64,000 bases of DNA from NCBI GenBank assembly GCA_003244105.1, contig QHBK01000006.1, positions 248,001 to 312,000 of the forward strand, read 5' to 3'. Of this stretch, positions 52,528-63,258 are shown piece after piece. The translations under genes were made by a program, and so were the position numbers. How positions within the stretch are numbered: the first letter of the stretch is position 1; each line of letters starts with the position of its first letter. The notes under the pieces were generated by a model. The model was not told the origin of the DNA, searched no databases, and was given only the letters and a program-made list of their open reading frames with translations. This stretch comes from Candidatus Eremiobacter antarcticus. GTDB lineage: Bacteria > Vulcanimicrobiota > Vulcanimicrobiia > Eremiobacterales > Eremiobacteraceae.

Positions 52528-53850
52528 TCAGCGCGAGCGCGCTGCGTACGCCTCATCCAATATCTCGACGACGTGCCGCACCCGCATGCGCGACCCGCGC
52601 TGCGCGAGGCCTGCCTGGAGTTGCATGGAGCAACCGGGATTCGCCGTGGCGACGACATCGGCGCTCGTCTCGAGCACGGCCTCAATCTTCTCGTCCAAAA
52701 TCGCTTGCGCAAGATGCGGATGGGTGAGGCTGTAGACGCCGGCAGCCCCGCAGCACTGGGAGGCGTTTCGCAACTCGATATAGCGCAAGCCCGGAATCGC
52801 TTGCAGCAGGGCCCGAGGCTGGTGTGAGATGCCCTGGCCGTGGACCAGGTGACAAGCATCCTGGTAGGTCACAGCGATCGGCAGCTTTGCAAAGCCGGAC
52901 ACAAGCGATGTCTCGGCGAGAAATTCCGTGACGTCTTTCACGCGCGCAGCGAACGCCAGCGCGGGCTGCGCATATTCGGAATCGTCCTTGAGCAGTTCCC
53001 CGTATTCTTTCATGACGGCGCCGCATCCGGCGGAGTTCACGATGATGGCGTCCAGCGGCGCGCGCCCAAAGGCGTCGATGTTCGCGCGCGCCAGGTCTTT
53101 GGCGATGGCGCGCTCGCCCGCGTGCACGTTCAGCGCCCCGCAGCACCACTGGCCCGTGGGCACGCGCACGTCGCACCCGTTGCGAGCCAACACGCGCACG
53201 GTGGCCTCGTGCGTATGGCGGAAGAGCGAGTCCATGACGCACCCGAGCAGTAAGCCGACGACCGCGCGGCGGCGACCGATGGCAGGCGTGACCGGAGGCA
53301 TGGCCGATGCCGACGGTTCAACGTGCTTGTCTCGGCGCGGCAGCATATCGACGAGGCGGCGCAGTCTGTTTCCCCGCGGCAAAGTGTCGAATGCGGCGGC
53401 GAAACCCGGTACAGACGCGATCGCGCGCGAGGGCCACATGAGCGCCCGGAAAAGCCACCGCCGCGGCAGGACGAGCCGAAACGCGAGTTGGCGGAAGATC
53501 ATCCATCCTTTGGAATGCGGCGCGAGATCGCGATGCTGCTCCACTTGGAAGCGGCCATACTCCAGCAGGCGCCCGAAGGGGACACCCGCGGGGCATACCG
53601 TTTCACATGCCCGGCAGCCCAAACAGCGATACAGGTGATCGGCCAAGTGCTGATTGATCTCCGCCTCTCCCAACGCCACTTGCTTCATCAAGAAGATGCG
53701 CCCGCGCGGAGAATCCGGCTCGAACCCCAACAAGCGGTATGTTGGACACGCCTGCTCGCACAATCCGCAGCGAGTACAGAGATCGAGGTCTGCAAGCGCA
53801 GGCCTTTCCGGTCCCGAGTAGCCCGGAGACACGCCAGGCACGCGCTTCAA
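52528..53850 (-). CDS. glcF: glycolate oxidase iron-sulfur subunit
   Basis: A 440-residue subunit with two ferredoxin motifs, LCTRCGLCEQACPTYRLLG near residue 25 and CLGCRACETVCPAGVPFG near residue 76, then two CCG domains: WCCGALNVHAG near residue 234 and SQCCGAAGVYSLT near residue 374, each preceded by a Cys-containing segment. It passes electrons from the flavin subunits to the quinone pool. TTG 53850 overlaps the glcE stop (TTGA). The C-terminal TANPGCSMQLQAGL is also typical. Confidence 0.94.
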   Translation of the reverse strand: MKRVPGVSPGYSGPERPALADLDLCTRCGLCEQACPTYRLLGFEPDSPRGRIFLMKQVALGEAEINQHLADHLYRCLGCRACETVCPAGVPFGRLLEYGRFQVEQHRDLAPHSKGWMIFRQLAFRLVLPRRWLFRALMWPSRAIASVPGFAAAFDTLPRGNRLRRLVDMLPRRDKHVEPSASAMPPVTPAIGRRRAVVGLLLGCVMDSLFRHTHEATVRVLARNGCDVRVPTGQWCCGALNVHAGERAIAKDLARANIDAFGRAPLDAIIVNSAGCGAVMKEYGELLKDDSEYAQPALAFAARVKDVTEFLAETSLVSGFAKLPIAVTYQDACHLVHGQGISHQPRALLQAIPGLRYIELRNASQCCGAAGVYSLTHPHLAQAILDEKIEAVLETSADVVATANPGCSMQLQAGLAQRGSRMRVRHVVEILDEAYAARSR

Positions 53851-55202
53851 ATGCCTCCCAGAAAACGGCCTGGATCGAACGTACCGCTGGGATCGAATGC
53901 CGCCTTGAGCTTGCGCATAAGGGCGATGGGAGCGCGCAGCGGCAATGCGGGCAACAGGTGCTCCCCGATCTGCGGGGGAGCGAACAGAAACTCAACGCTC
54001 CAGCCGTGCGCCTCACAGGCGTTTGCGAACGCTCGCAGCCCGCTTGGGGCAGCGGTCGACACATGAGCGTCGGCACGCACGTGCACGAACGTGAGACCGA
54101 CTGCCGGATGCGCCGTGCACTCGGTGTCAGGGCCCAGCGAAAGCGCCCGCGCCATAACCGCGGCCACGTGCGAAGGCTGGCTTATGACCTTCATGCCGGC
54201 GACCGTAGCGGGCGAATAGGCTGCGCCGCAGGCTAGCTCCGCGATATCGGCCCAGGCGTGCTGCACCTGAGCTTGCGCGACCATCTCTATGCGTACGCCG
54301 CTTGCGGCGGCGGCTGACGCGGCTTTGCATATACGGGTTATGCCATCGGCCTGACGCGCGATCGCTCCGCGCGTGCCGCCCAAGCGCAAGACGAGCATCC
54401 ACGCATGCCCGTCATGCAAGCCGCCGCCCAAGGAACGCACGCGATGAGCGGACCGAGCGTCGTGCAGAGTCGTCGCGGAAGGGAAGAGCGGCGAGCTGGC
54501 CACGTCCAAAGCGGCCTGGCACGCGGGCTCGAGGCGCTCAAAGGTCGCGACCAGCCCGGCCTCCGCTTGAGGGAGCGGCGCGACCTTGAGGGTGACATCG
54601 GCGATCGCCCCGAGCGTGCCGCGCGCGCCCACGAACAGCTTAGGAATGTCGTAGCCAGCCACGCTTTTGACGACCCGCGCTCCGCTGAAGGCGGTCGAAC
54701 CATCGGAGAGGCTCACATGCATGCCGAGAACGTTGTCGCGCAAAGCCCCAAAGCGCTGGCGCAGCGCTCCATCCCTTCGTCCTGAGAGGATCCCGCCGAT
54801 CGTTCCCTCGGCCGCATGGGAGGGATCGCACGGGAAGAACTGACCCTGCGCGCGCAGCGCGCTCTGCAAGTCTGAGAACTTGGTGCCGGCGCCGACGGTG
54901 ACGGTCAGATCCGCGGGCGCATACTCCACGATGCCGTCGCAGCGCGTCATGTCGAGCACCGCGTCGATCGAGACGGGGGGCGGCGGCCGCCACTGCGCCG
55001 TGCCGGCTCCCCGGATGATGACGGCGGCCCCTTCCTGTCTCAGAGCGCTCACGATCCTCGCAGCTTCGCGCGCGTTGTGCGGGGAGAAGACCAGCTTGGG
55101 CGTGCAGCCTCCCACCGAGTAGCGCGCGCACTCGTCGGGCCGGACCCGCGGCCGGCTGCCGGTATGCTTGCGCAGGTCTGCTGCGAAGGGCAGGTTCAGC
55201 AT
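53847..55202 (-). CDS. glcE: glycolate oxidase FAD-binding subunit
   Basis: A 451-residue FAD_binding_4 protein started at ATG 55202 (MLNLPFAADLRKHTG), 2 nt after the glcD stop. The frame upstream is Arg-rich and belongs to glcD. Flavin-binding blocks are AAVIIRGAGTAQWRPPPPV and HAAEGTIGGILSGRRDG, followed by VKSVAGYDIPKLFVGARGTLG. It is longer than E. coli GlcE (about 350 residues), with an extended middle. It works with GlcD and GlcF to oxidise glycolate to glyoxylate. Confidence 0.92.
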   Translation of the reverse strand: MLNLPFAADLRKHTGSRPRVRPDECARYSVGGCTPKLVFSPHNAREAARIVSALRQEGAAVIIRGAGTAQWRPPPPVSIDAVLDMTRCDGIVEYAPADLTVTVGAGTKFSDLQSALRAQGQFFPCDPSHAAEGTIGGILSGRRDGALRQRFGALRDNVLGMHVSLSDGSTAFSGARVVKSVAGYDIPKLFVGARGTLGAIADVTLKVAPLPQAEAGLVATFERLEPACQAALDVASSPLFPSATTLHDARSAHRVRSLGGGLHDGHAWMLVLRLGGTRGAIARQADGITRICKAASAAAASGVRIEMVAQAQVQHAWADIAELACGAAYSPATVAGMKVISQPSHVAAVMARALSLGPDTECTAHPAVGLTFVHVRADAHVSTAAPSGLRAFANACEAHGWSVEFLFAPPQIGEHLLPALPLRAPIALMRKLKAAFDPSGTFDPGRFLGGI

Positions 55203-55204
55203 CG

Positions 55205-56662
55205 TTAGAATGCGGGGCCGGCCGCAGGCGCGATGCCCTCCGGCAGATCGGCTCTTTGCAGCGTGCGCGCGCTCTCGCCGCAGCGCCTGGAAGTGGGGAA
55301 CATCTTGGCCGGGTTGCAGAGGCCGCCCGGGTTGAAGACCGCTTTCAGCTTTGCCATCAGCGCGAGGTCGCTTGGCGCGTACTGGACGTTCATGCAATCG
55401 CGCTTCTCGATGCCGATGCCGTGCTCGCCCGAGATGCTGCCGCCGCGAGCGACGCAAGCGCGCAAGATGTCGGCGCCCGCGGCGATGGCCGCATCCACCT
55501 GCGCCGGCACTTTCTCGTCAAAGGCGATGAGCGGATGTATGTTGCCGTCCCCCGCGTGGAAGACGTTTGCGATAAGCAATCCGTAGCGGCGGCCGATCGC
55601 CTCGACTTCGGCGAGCACTTCGGGCAGTTTGGTGCGCGGTATGACGCCGTCTTGGACGTAGTAGCTCGGGCTGAAGCGGCCCATGGCGCCGAAAGCGCTC
55701 TTGCGACCCCTCCAGATGCGTTCGCGTTCCGCTTCATCCTTGGCCAAACGGACTTCGCGCGCGCCGTCGCGGCGGCAGACGTCGCCGATGGCGGCTGCGG
55801 TCTCCCCGACCGATTCCTGCAGCCCGTCGACGTCTGCTATGAGGATGGCGCCGGCGTCCGTCGGGAAGCCCGCATGCACGTACGCCTCTATGGCTTGGGT
55901 GGAAAGCCGGTCCATCATCTCGAGCGCGGCCGGGATGATCCCGGCCGCGATGATGTCGGACACCGCTTTGGATGCGTCGTCGACCGAATCGAACACGGCC
56001 AGAAGGGTGCGAGTCGTCTCAGGCTGAGGCGTCAGCTTGACGGCGATCTTGGTCGCGATGCCGAGCGTGCCTTCGGACCCGATGAAGACGCCCAGCAGAT
56101 CGTATCCGGCCGTCTCATTCTCCCGGCCCCCCAGCCAGACGATCTCTCCCTGCGGCGTCACGATCTCGCAGCCGAGCACGTGGTTGGACGTGACGCCGTA
56201 GGCCAGGCAGTGCAGCCCGCCGGCGTTCTCGGCGACGTTGCCGCCGATCGTGCAAGCGCTTTGACTGGACGGGTCGGGCACGAAACGCAACCCCAGCGTC
56301 GCGACCGCCGCGCTGATGTGGGCGTTCACCACGCCCGGCTCGACGAGCGCCGTGCGGTTAGCGGCGTCGATATCGAGTATCCGCCGCATGCGGGCCGTCG
56401 AGATCAGGACGCCGCCGAACTCGGCGATGGCACCGCCCGACAGGCCCGTGCCTGCACCGCGTGCGACATAGGGGCAGCGCAATTCTTCACACGCTCGCAC
56501 GACTGCGGCGACTTGGGCCGCGTCCGCGGGAAAGACCACGGCCTCAGGAGCGGCTCGGTCGATCGAGCCGTCGTATGCGTAGTTGCGCAGATCGTCAGGC
56601 CGCGCGGTGACGTGCTCGTGACCAACGGCGGATCGCAGACGCTGAATCAGAGCTTCCTGCAT
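55205..56662 (-). CDS. glcD: glycolate oxidase / D-2-hydroxyacid dehydrogenase subunit
   Basis: A 485-residue flavoprotein started at ATG 56662 (MQEALIQRLRSAVG); the in-frame codon at 56752 would overlap a divergent gene. FAD-binding motifs are YVARGAGTGLSGGAIAEFGG near residue 67 and CTIGGNVAENAGGLHCLAYG, with the C-terminal NVFHAGDGNIHPLI and GSISGEHGIGIEKR holding conserved histidines. It catalyses the oxidation of glycolate, or of D-lactate in related enzymes. It is the first gene of the glcDEF operon. Confidence 0.94.
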   Translation of the reverse strand: MQEALIQRLRSAVGHEHVTARPDDLRNYAYDGSIDRAAPEAVVFPADAAQVAAVVRACEELRCPYVARGAGTGLSGGAIAEFGGVLISTARMRRILDIDAANRTALVEPGVVNAHISAAVATLGLRFVPDPSSQSACTIGGNVAENAGGLHCLAYGVTSNHVLGCEIVTPQGEIVWLGGRENETAGYDLLGVFIGSEGTLGIATKIAVKLTPQPETTRTLLAVFDSVDDASKAVSDIIAAGIIPAALEMMDRLSTQAIEAYVHAGFPTDAGAILIADVDGLQESVGETAAAIGDVCRRDGAREVRLAKDEAERERIWRGRKSAFGAMGRFSPSYYVQDGVIPRTKLPEVLAEVEAIGRRYGLLIANVFHAGDGNIHPLIAFDEKVPAQVDAAIAAGADILRACVARGGSISGEHGIGIEKRDCMNVQYAPSDLALMAKLKAVFNPGGLCNPAKMFPTSRRCGESARTLQRADLPEGIAPAAGPAF

Positions 56663-56724
56663 CAAGCCTGTGGCATTCGGGAGAGAATGTTCCCGGGCCC
56701 CCGGGCTCGAACGGACGGGCGCGT

Positions 56725-57048
56725 ATGCGGATCGAGCGGGTCGATTACTCACCGCGCAAAGAGGTCTATCACCCGGGTGAGGTGGTCAATGTCGCCATCC
56801 GCTTCGCCGAGCCGTTCGTGGGCCAGTGTGAGATCGGGTTCGTGCCGCAGGACCGCCCCGCCGGGGAAGACTTCCGCCGTTCGACGTGCGCTCGCAGCAG
56901 CGACAAGCTCTATGAAGGCCAATTGTACCTGCGAGATGGCCAAGTCGGACGGTGCGCGTTGCTGGTCCGGCTGGCGCCCGTCAAGGGCGCACCGCAAACG
57001 GTGCGGGCAGGCGAGCAGATCTTCGAAGTCCGCCCGTTGCGGCCCTAA
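56725..57048 (+). CDS. hypothetical protein upstream of the selenoperoxiredoxin
   Basis: A 107-residue protein with a strand-rich pattern (VYHPGEVVNVAIRFAEPF; GQCEIGFVPQD; VGRCALLVRLAP; GEQIFEVRPL) that suggests a small immunoglobulin-like or beta-sandwich fold. It has three cysteines. No signal peptide is seen. It ends 19 nt before the peroxiredoxin gene on the same strand and is likely co-transcribed with it. I do not recognise a family. Confidence 0.7.
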   Translation: MRIERVDYSPRKEVYHPGEVVNVAIRFAEPFVGQCEIGFVPQDRPAGEDFRRSTCARSSDKLYEGQLYLRDGQVGRCALLVRLAPVKGAPQTVRAGEQIFEVRPLRP

Positions 57049-57067
57049 AGCCGAAAAGAGGACAGAC

Positions 57068-57532
57068 ATGCCAGTGCGAGTTGGAGAACCGTTGCCCGAT
57101 ATCAGAGGCGAGTCGCCGCAAGGACCCGTCAAGCTTGCCGATTTTCGCGGGCTGAAATCCATCGTCTTGTGGGCCTACTCCAAAGATGGCACATCCGGCT
57201 GAACCAATGAAGCGCGTGACTTCAGTCAGCGGTCCGCTGACTTTGAACGGCTCGATACCATCTTAGTCGGGGTTTCCCGAGACACCGTAGAGTCGCACCG
57301 AACCTTCGCCGCCGATCACGCAATCACGGCGTACTTGCTGGCGGACCCAAGCGGGAGCATCTGCAGCGAGTTGGGAGTGCTTCCGGACCCCGCCGGCAAT
57401 GCCAAGCGCACGACGTTCGTCATCGACAAGCAAGGCGTCGTCCGCCGGATTTTCGAGAACGTAAAGGTCCCGGGGCACGCCGACGAGGTGCTCGCCTTCG
57501 TGTGCGATATGGCCGCCATGAAATTGCCGTAG
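57068..57532 (+). CDS. BCP-type peroxiredoxin with in-frame UGA at the catalytic Cys (probable selenoprotein)
   Basis: One frame of 155 codons from ATG 57068 (AGAGGA upstream) reads as a peroxiredoxin from end to end: LADFRGLKSIVLWAYSKDGT, SG-UGA-TNEARDFSQ, LVGVSRDTVESHRTFAADH, RTTFVIDKQGVVRRIFENV, then TAG. The only interruption is TGA at 57200-57202, codon 45. BCP/PrxQ proteins have the peroxidatic Cys at this place (TPGCTKEA; Cys45 in E. coli BCP). Selenocysteine is therefore the likely residue, giving a 154-residue enzyme that reduces peroxides. The resolving Cys five residues on is Arg here; other Cys lie in SICSELG and FVCDM. A nonsense mutation is the alternative. Confidence 0.82.
57224..57242 (+). 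promoter_or_regulatory. putative bacterial SECIS hairpin
   Basis: AGTCAGCG (57224-57231) and CGCTGACT (57235-57242) form a perfect 8-bp stem with loop GTC. The loop G is 30 nt after the UGA at 57200-57202. Bacterial SECIS elements are stem-loops in the coding sequence just after UGA, with a small loop led by G and placed roughly 16-37 nt downstream; this fits. TTC and GAA flanks may extend the stem past a bulge. Confidence 0.65.
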
Positions 57533-57653: not shown

Positions 57654-58262
57654 ATGAGGCGCAAAACCACCAAGCGAACCGGTTCGAAGACATCGACCAC
57701 GAAGAAGTCCGGTCGCAAATCGAGCAAGGCTTCCCGCTCGAAGTCAACCGGCAAGAAATCGTCAACGAAGAGAACAAGCAAGAGATCATCCAGCCAGGCA
57801 ACAGGCCGCAAGACATCATCATCGGGACGCAAAGCATCATCGTCACGCGGGTCGGCGCGGAGCAGCTCGCGGCGTAAAACCTCAAGCGGCAGTTCGCAAT
57901 CCTCCGGCGGTACGCGTTCCGGTACGACGCAAGCGACCGGCGGAACGAAGAGTTCCACCGGCAAAGGCGGCCGCACCACTCGGACATCTGCACGATCGTC
58001 GGGCGCCAAGCGCAGCGGCCGCTCTTCGGGCAGCGCGACGAGCAACGGCTCAGCGTCACCGCGCGCTTCGCGCGGCGAGCGCGAGAGCAGAACTGAACGC
58101 TCGGGCAGCGAGCGCTATGGAAGCGAGCGCTCGGGAACGGAACGCGAACCCAGAGAAGGAGCGGTGAACGTCGACGATCTTGAAGACAGCGAGGAGCTCG
58201 AAGAGACGTACACTGAGGAAGAAGAAGACTACACGCCCGAGAACTCAGAAGAGGAATATTGA
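57654..58262 (+). CDS. histone-like, Ser/Lys/Arg-rich protein with acidic tail
   Basis: A 202-residue low-complexity protein with a strong GGAGG 5 nt before ATG 57654. Residues 1-165 are made almost only of Ser, Thr, Lys, Arg and Gly in short repeats (KKSGRKSSK; KKSSTKRTSKRSSS; GSERYGSERSGTERE). Residues about 168-202 are highly acidic (DDLEDSEELEETY; EEEEDY). Such basic tails resemble histone H1-like nucleoid proteins of bacteria; the acidic end could modulate DNA or RNA binding. It must be disordered. The exact role is unknown. Confidence 0.8.
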   Translation: MRRKTTKRTGSKTSTTKKSGRKSSKASRSKSTGKKSSTKRTSKRSSSQATGRKTSSSGRKASSSRGSARSSSRRKTSSGSSQSSGGTRSGTTQATGGTKSSTGKGGRTTRTSARSSGAKRSGRSSGSATSNGSASPRASRGERESRTERSGSERYGSERSGTEREPREGAVNVDDLEDSEELEETYTEEEEDYTPENSEEEY

Positions 58263-60468: not shown

Positions 60469-61755
60469 ATGAACGCGTCGGTGTCCAAGACCGAACTCAA
60501 CCTATGGATGGCGTTCAGCGACGAAGCCAAGACGCAGCGGCTTTACGCCGCCTACGCGCTTGCCGCCATGAACGAGGGCTACCCGGAAGCAGCCGAGGCC
60601 TTTATGGAGGCGGCCGGGGCAGAAGTCATCCACGCCATGTCGCATCTGCAGGCGTTAGGCGCCGTGAAGAGCACCGCCGAAAATCTGAGGCACGTCGTGG
60701 AAGAGGAATCGCGCGAGAGCGAGCACACCTACCCGCGTTATATAGAAGAAGCTCGTCAAGACGGCCGCCAAGACGCGGTGCGCACCTTCACGCTTGCTCT
60801 CAACCGCGAGCGTCACCACATTGAGCTGTTTCAAAGGACGCTCGCGCAGCTGGCCTCGCGCGAGGTTGCAGACGGCGCTGTCGCCGCCGCGCCGCGCATT
60901 TCGGATGGGGACAAAAAACCGGGGCGCTCGTCCGGCGATGCGCGCGCACAAATCACGGAGGGGCCTTTGGCTTCCAGCGCCGAGGGCGAGCTTTCGCGCA
61001 CGGCGCGCGCAGGCGCCGAGAAAATGACCGGCCCTGCGGAGATCAGCGAAGAGCGAGCGCGCATCGCGAGCCGTTCGCGCATCCGGGAGCTGGTCTTCGG
61101 GGCGCAAGACGGCGTCCTCACGACCGTCGGAGTGGTCTCCGCTTTTTTCGGCGCGACGGCCCACAACAGCGTCATCCTGTTGGCGGGCCTTGCGTCGGGC
61201 TTTGCAGGCATGGTGGCGATGACCGCAGGCAGCTATCTGTCATCGAAAGCAGAAGCCGACGTCGAGCGCTCGGAGATCATCCGCGAGCGTCAAGAGCTCA
61301 CAGACCATCCTGCCGAGGAGCTCGCCGAACTTGTGGAGATCTACCGCCGGCAGGGGATGGGCCGCGAGCAAGCGCGCAACGCCGCGCTGCAAGTCGCAAA
61401 GGATCCCAAGCGCATGCTCGAGGTCATGGCGCGCCAGGAGCTGGGCCTCGAGCTGGAGCCGCAGCAGAACGCGATCAAAGATGCCGGCGTCATGGCGCTG
61501 TCGTTTTTGTCGGGGGCGGTTTTCCCCATCGTCCCATACGTGCTCATCAACGGCTTGCCGGCATTCGTCACTTCCATTCTGCTGGCGGCGGTCGTGTTGT
61601 TCGCAATCGGCGTCATCAAAGCGCGCGCTGCAGACACGAGCCAGCTTCGCTCGGGGGTCGAGTCGTTCGGCATCGGGGCTGCCGCCGGCTTACTCGGCTA
61701 CATCTTGGGGACGCTCATCCCCAAGGCTTTCGGGGTCAACTTCATCGGCGGCTGA
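60469..61755 (+). CDS. mbfA: ferritin-like (rubrerythrin) domain fused to VIT1/CCC1 transporter, MbfA-like
   Basis: A 428-residue fusion. Residues 10-140 form a rubrerythrin-like four-helix di-iron domain with ExxH pairs in AGAEVIHAMSHLQAL and RERHHIELFQRTLAQL. A 60-residue polar linker follows. Residues about 200-428 form the VIT1 domain (RIRELVFGAQDGVLTTVGVV; MTAGSYLSSKAEADVERSEI; GAVFPIVPYVLI). MbfA of rhizobia and agrobacteria has this order and exports iron, aiding peroxide resistance. Near sodA and the peroxiredoxin, an iron-detoxifying role is plausible. The linker is longer than I recall for MbfA. Confidence 0.9.
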   Translation: MNASVSKTELNLWMAFSDEAKTQRLYAAYALAAMNEGYPEAAEAFMEAAGAEVIHAMSHLQALGAVKSTAENLRHVVEEESRESEHTYPRYIEEARQDGRQDAVRTFTLALNRERHHIELFQRTLAQLASREVADGAVAAAPRISDGDKKPGRSSGDARAQITEGPLASSAEGELSRTARAGAEKMTGPAEISEERARIASRSRIRELVFGAQDGVLTTVGVVSAFFGATAHNSVILLAGLASGFAGMVAMTAGSYLSSKAEADVERSEIIRERQELTDHPAEELAELVEIYRRQGMGREQARNAALQVAKDPKRMLEVMARQELGLELEPQQNAIKDAGVMALSFLSGAVFPIVPYVLINGLPAFVTSILLAAVVLFAIGVIKARAADTSQLRSGVESFGIGAAAGLLGYILGTLIPKAFGVNFIGG

Positions 61756-62475: not shown

Positions 62476-62643
62476 AGAGGCCGTCGCTTGCAAGCATTGC
62501 GTTGCATGAATCGTTCCATTCGCAAACCGAACGGTGAACTCATACGTGAGCGCGAAACCGCTCGGCCGTCCGGCTAGGACTTGCCGGTCCGGCGTGCAAT
62601 TCGATACCTTCGCTTCACGACTGCACACGCCGGAGGACGCATC

Positions 62644-63258
62644 ATGGCCCACGAGTTGCCGCCGCTTCAATACGCATACGACTCCCTCGAGCCGTTCATC
62701 GATACGACGACCATGACGCTGCATCACGATAAGCACCATGCGACCTACGTGTCAAATCTCAACGCGGCGATCGAGAAACATCCGGAGCTGGGCGGCAAGA
62801 GCGCCGAAGATCTGATCCGCGACCTGAACGCAGTGCCCGAAGACATCCGCGCGGCGGTGCGCAACAACGGCGGCGGTCATGTGAACCACTCGATGTTCTG
62901 GACCATCATGAAGCCCAACGCCGGCGGAAATCCCAAAGGTGCGCTTGCGGATGCTCTGCGTGAGGCGTTCGGCGATCTGGAGTCGTTCAAGAAGCTGTTC
63001 AACGAAGCCGGCACCAAGCAGTTCGGCAGCGGCTGGGTGTGGCTCGTGCGTGGCAAAGACGGGAAGCTGCAGGTGACCAGCACCCCCAACCAAGACAATC
63101 CGCTCTCTCAAGGCCTCTATCCCATCATGGGCAACGACGTATGGGAGCACGCCTACTATCTGAAGTACCAGAACCGGCGCGCCGACTATTTGACGGCGTG
63201 GTGGAACGTCGTGGATTGGGATGCCCTCCACCGGCGCTTTGACTCCGCTTCTCGCTGA
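62644..63258 (+). CDS. sodA: superoxide dismutase, Mn type
   Basis: A 204-residue enzyme starting at ATG 62644 with GGAGGA upstream. Metal ligands are in [26 protein letters not shown] and [12 protein letters not shown]. The choice of Mn rests on Gly in NNGGGHVNH and on Gln in [10 protein letters not shown], the positions that usually separate Mn from Fe enzymes, though some are cambialistic. It has no signal peptide, so it acts in the cytoplasm. fabI begins 8 nt after its stop. Confidence 0.95.

Follow-up and report, generated by a model that had tools for sequence, protein, structure and literature searches.

Bacterial peroxiredoxins carrying selenocysteine (Sec) in a T/SxxU motif are a catalogued family, listed as COG1225 (Bcp) with the motif TxxU (PMC9312934 Table 1; also PMC1794560 Table 1), and the initial annotation of the locus described here was right in treating selenoprotein peroxiredoxins of bacteria as known. 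A survey from 2006 recorded 12 Sec peroxiredoxins and five Cys-to-Sec events (PMC1794560). In PrxU of Eubacterium acidaminophilum the Sec is the peroxidatic residue (Sohling et al. 2001, cited in PMC9312934). A Sec peroxiredoxin with a T/SxxU site is thus an established kind of enzyme, and since such proteins have already been catalogued, the peroxiredoxin reported below adds a member to the family, not a phenomenon. Its gene lies in the window, i.e. the whole stretch of 64,000 nucleotides that was analysed, and is made up of the following features:

57068..57532, forward strand: selenocysteine peroxiredoxin gene (translation with TGA as U, Pfam AhpC-TSA, AlphaFold fold match)
57200..57202, forward strand: UGA of codon 45, in place of the peroxidatic Cys and read as Sec (TGA in nine of nine clade members; aligned with the catalytic Cys of Cys homologues)
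57056..57062, forward strand: likely ribosome-binding site AAGAGGA (purine-rich and 5' of the ATG, as seen directly; the role is presumed)

Translation of 57068-57532 with TGA as Sec (U) resulted in 154 residues followed by a terminal TAG, with Sec as residue 45 and the TGA at 57200-57202 as the sole internal stop. The Pfam family AhpC-TSA was matched over residues 5-127 (E=1.4e-28, 99.8 bits against a cut-off of 26), and the sequence also matched BCP/PrxQ chains in the PDB, among them 5enu (phmmer 2.3e-23). The AlphaFold model (pLDDT 94) superimposed on BCP/PrxQ structures with TM values up to 0.91. Translation, Pfam and PDB matches all bear out the proposal of a peroxiredoxin frame broken only by a TGA at codon 45. 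This codon aligns with the peroxidatic cysteine of the Cys homologues, both among the PDB chains and among the PrxQ proteins of the same class of bacteria, so that the active-site motif reads T42-S43-G44-U45 (TxxU). Ordinary gene calling is predicted to split such a gene and thereby to conceal a functional antioxidant enzyme.

The window's protein forms one clade with eight others, which share 49-66% identity with it; all members of this clade have Sec, and its support is 100/100 and 100/98 in two trees. The relatives that are named in the GTDB contigs are mostly metagenome-assembled genomes (MAGs) of Candidatus Eremiobacterota, so that the window presumably belongs to this phylum as well; among the 117 genomes of the class, the all-Sec clade occurs only in one family, where the gene together with the hairpin described below was found in nine of 14 genomes. 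All nine members carry TGA at codon 45, the aligned protein being otherwise free of stops, and the position of the UGA at the catalytic cysteine, as initially annotated, is therefore not due to chance. Downstream of the UGA, the differences from the relative L019 are distributed 25/19/56 over codon positions 1/2/3, and this excess at third positions indicates that the downstream frame is under protein-level selection. A pseudogene or an assembly error, with a nonsense mutation or a wrong base call at the codon of the catalytic cysteine, would need a single base, TGA being one base off TGC and TGT, and the genome is a draft (2.64 Mb, 95.8% complete, 19 contigs); the identical TGA in nine independent genomes nevertheless refutes this explanation, and the selection on the frame after the TGA, the complete Sec system of the genome and the conserved hairpin speak against it as well, which leaves it with practically no probability.

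The genes necessary for Sec decoding, for which a search had been proposed, are all present in the window's assembly, on contigs other than that of the window. The tRNA-Sec with the anticodon UCA (TCA in DNA; 75.7 bits, cut-off 47) was found on contig C16, as were selA and, directly following it, selB; both SelA (511 bits) and SelB (320 bits) exceed the curated cut-offs. The gene selD is located on contig C3 (358 bits). Within the 64-kb window itself no tRNA was found, and an Rfam scan of it yielded no match. The SelD frame (C3:378019-378987, reverse strand) is itself interrupted by a single UGA, within the motif SSCAGU, and SelD is very likely a selenoprotein. In-frame UGA was seen in two of the ten AhpC-TSA matches of the genome; the second of these peroxiredoxins (L002, C1:7933-8319, reverse strand) carries one such codon in FTQGUTIEA, followed at a similar distance by a hairpin with the loop AGGUU, and is likely to be a second selenoprotein. 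With the window's peroxiredoxin, L002 and SelD, there are at least three genes in which UGA occupies the position of a catalytic cysteine, be it known or likely. The single AhpD-like match (PF02627) of the genome contains no in-frame stop, and scanning of the window for further frames with TGA readthrough, judged by eye, revealed no convincing additional selenoprotein.

A different decoding of the UGA, either by genome-wide reassignment (e.g. to Trp, Gly or Cys) or by leaky readthrough with a near-cognate tRNA, may be considered as well, since readthrough likewise yields a full-length product. However, UGA otherwise acts as a stop in this genome, for example at the end of the gene at 57654-58262; the codon sits exactly in the column of the catalytic cysteine in the window's peroxiredoxin, with matching sites in the second peroxiredoxin and SelD; and both SelB and a tRNA-Sec with the anticodon UCA are present. 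A decoding of this kind is accordingly very improbable.

Among the PrxQ homologues from the class, both Sec and Cys forms were observed in the column of codon 45, so that the proposed alignment across relatives gave TGA in all close orthologues and an exchange of U and C in the wider homologues. The tRNA-Sec was detected in the genomes of 17 of the 19 Sec forms vs four of the 11 Cys forms (Fisher p=0.004, a value that is indicative, the counts having been made by hand on related sequences). In the other PrxQ clade, the Cys forms are nested among the Sec forms under midpoint rooting, with weak branch support, which suggests that Sec may have been replaced by Cys there. Since the class contains both Sec and Cys forms, and most of the Cys forms belong to genomes in which no tRNA-Sec was detected, Sec-to-Cys replacement can be tested there. 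Two genomes that possess the window-type gene, G001 and G010, gave no tRNA-Sec match above the cut-off; both assemblies are fragmented. Three further genomes of the class (G016, G024 and G034) have SelB above the cut-off and no tRNA-Sec above it, which may be due to gaps in the assembly, to a tRNA-Sec that has diverged or to a Sec trait in decay. Sec forms of PrxQ were also found in MAGs of Acidobacteriota, Gemmatimonadota, Planctomycetota and Myxococcota.

The members of the clade share, downstream of the UGA, the sequence TTCAGYCRGCGGTCNGCYGACTT, which can form a hairpin within the coding sequence:

57224-57230 paired with 57236-57242, loop GGUCC at 57231-57235, forward strand: putative bacterial SECIS hairpin (pairing, synonymous constraint)

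In the clade the hairpin consists of a 7-bp stem, with seven of seven pairs formed in the window, and a loop GGUCN. It begins 21 nt and its loop 28 nt after the UGA, which falls inside the 16-37 nt quoted for the apical loop of bacterial SECIS elements (PMC10778597). A SECIS-like hairpin that is conserved in the clade is present at the site for which a SECIS search had been proposed. Over the nine sequences, 98.4% of the pair cells hold standard pairs, vs 13-52% when the partner strand is slid. One pair, the only covarying one, is A-U in some members and G-C in others, a double change that probably arose in one event. For invariant residues, the codons within the hairpin are identical between members at a rate of 0.73 vs 0.41 elsewhere (p about 0.002 in a stratified permutation test). 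When single sequences were folded, the z-score for the hairpin region in the window was weak (-1.27), and such scores did not distinguish the Sec forms (mean -0.92) from the Cys forms (mean -1.19); since they do not discriminate, conservation tests were used instead. The hairpin sequence was absent from the 103 other genomes of the class, and a search for the motif in viral contigs found no exact match. The Sec forms among the class-level PrxQ proteins have a different hairpin, located nearer to the UGA and fully paired in seven of ten Sec forms but in no Cys form out of 11 (Fisher p=0.001, a comparison biased towards this structure, which was picked from the same sequences). Three class-level Sec forms (L027, L032 and L036) are devoid of the hairpin common to the other seven, so that any SECIS in them must differ in shape or location. 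The window-type clade offers a natural alignment of putative SECIS hairpins that may be under joint constraint on protein and RNA.

With the sel genes, the orthologues, the exchange of Sec and Cys and the SECIS-like hairpin, the initially proposed reading of the UGA as Sec is strongly supported, and we regard it as nearly certain that codon 45 specifies Sec in a working peroxiredoxin of the PrxQ/BCP type. Upon arrival of the ribosome at codon 45 of the mRNA, the hairpin with its GGUCN loop would recruit SelB carrying Sec-tRNA-Sec, and insertion of Sec, to judge from the conserved anatomy and the full set of Sec genes, would result in the enzyme of 154 residues.

As for catalysis, T42 of the TxxU motif and Arg114, which are established active-site residues of peroxiredoxins, are conserved in the clade. 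Atypical 2-Cys PrxQ enzymes have their resolving cysteine either in helix 2, at column 50, or in helix 3, at column 81. None of the nine clade sequences has a cysteine in either column, and position 50 of the window's protein is indeed the arginine noted in the initial annotation, which had also proposed that the reducing mechanism may differ; the first part of that proposal, the missing canonical resolving cysteine, holds for nine of nine members, and the altered mechanism is plausible from the sequences. The selenol of U45 would attack H2O2 or an organic peroxide, and the selenenic acid so formed would be reduced directly by an external thiol. Such a 1-Sec mechanism is probable, because no canonical resolving cysteine is present, and we consider it with fair though not full confidence as the reduction step. 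It is less likely, at perhaps one chance among several, that the enzyme with its Sec inserted works in a 2-Cys-like (Sec/Cys) manner with C99 as the resolving residue, a variant that differs from the preferred one only in the reduction. C99 occurs in seven of the nine members and is widespread among class-level PrxQ proteins; on the other hand, it is missing from L021 and L023 and lies outside both canonical PrxQ positions (columns 50 and 81).

The surroundings of the peroxiredoxin gene are conserved and contain the following genes upstream:

56725..57048, forward strand: conserved 107-aa protein without an assigned function (beside the peroxiredoxin gene in all eight relatives)
55205..56752, reverse strand: GlcD-like glycolate oxidase subunit, divergent (NCBIfam GlcD models at 540 and 504 bits, neither of which reaches its equivalog cut-off)
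52528..55457, reverse strand: GlcE-like and GlcF-like subunits (NCBIfam GlcE 160 and GlcF 288 bits, both below the cut-off; Pfam domains)

In all eight relatives the gene for the 107-aa protein precedes the peroxiredoxin gene and the GlcD-like gene is divergent. GlcE is also encoded at the five loci with longer flanks, and at four of these five a glycosyltransferase gene followed by that of a membrane protein is found downstream. The gap between the 107-aa gene and the peroxiredoxin gene is 19 bp, and the two are likely to be co-transcribed. The 107-aa protein, a predicted beta sandwich, has no match in Pfam or NCBIfam, and neither a sequence search of the PDB nor a fold search found a meaningful or close relative. 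The gene order suggests a role in the removal of peroxide tied to the GlcD-like flavoenzyme or to general aerobic metabolism. That this lineage-specific, always-Sec 1-Sec peroxiredoxin could be a dedicated scavenger for the glycolate-oxidase-like complex, with the 107-aa protein as its partner, in an uncultured phylum that is probably aerobic, is a speculative extension that we hold to be rather unlikely. Directly after the peroxiredoxin gene, 57654-58262 encodes a low-complexity protein of 202 aa that is rich in Lys, Ser, Arg and Thr, ends in an acidic tail and has no Pfam match. Further downstream, a single protein fusing rubrerythrin-like and VIT-family domains is encoded at 60469-61755, and near it, at 62641-63258, an Fe/Mn superoxide dismutase.

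Eremiobacterota, an uncultured phylum, thus joins the lineages with well-supported Sec peroxiredoxins. In a literature search that missed most subscription journals, no paper joining Eremiobacter* with selenocysteine was found, and on this weak evidence the use of Sec in the phylum appears to be unreported. The SECIS of E. coli fdhF has a short stem and an apical loop containing GGUC downstream of the UGA, and the hairpin of the clade is alike in its short stem and its GGUC-containing loop 3' of the UGA, whereas its stem sequence and exact spacing differ and its binding of SelB is putative. The fold is like that of the PrxQ/BCP proteins 5enu of Burkholderia ambifaria and Bcp1 of Sulfolobus (3drn), with TM values of 0.88-0.91; 5enu, however, has Cys at the position aligned with the Sec of the window's protein. 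With PrxU of Eubacterium acidaminophilum the protein has in common the Sec at the peroxidatic residue, but it scores only 40.2 bits with the PrxU model NF040737 (peroxi_PrxU; cut-off 270), and this model is longer, with 233 positions vs 154 aa. What is characteristic of the bacterial Sec peroxiredoxin family was found here too, namely the AhpC-TSA/BCP domain with its thioredoxin fold over the whole protein, Sec in T/SxxU (here TxxU), Sec-decoding genes and Cys homologues. The window type differs from the family in forming a separate all-Sec clade with no canonical resolving cysteine and with its own GGUCN hairpin, and the new details are this lineage-restricted clade, its hairpin and its conserved neighbourhood.
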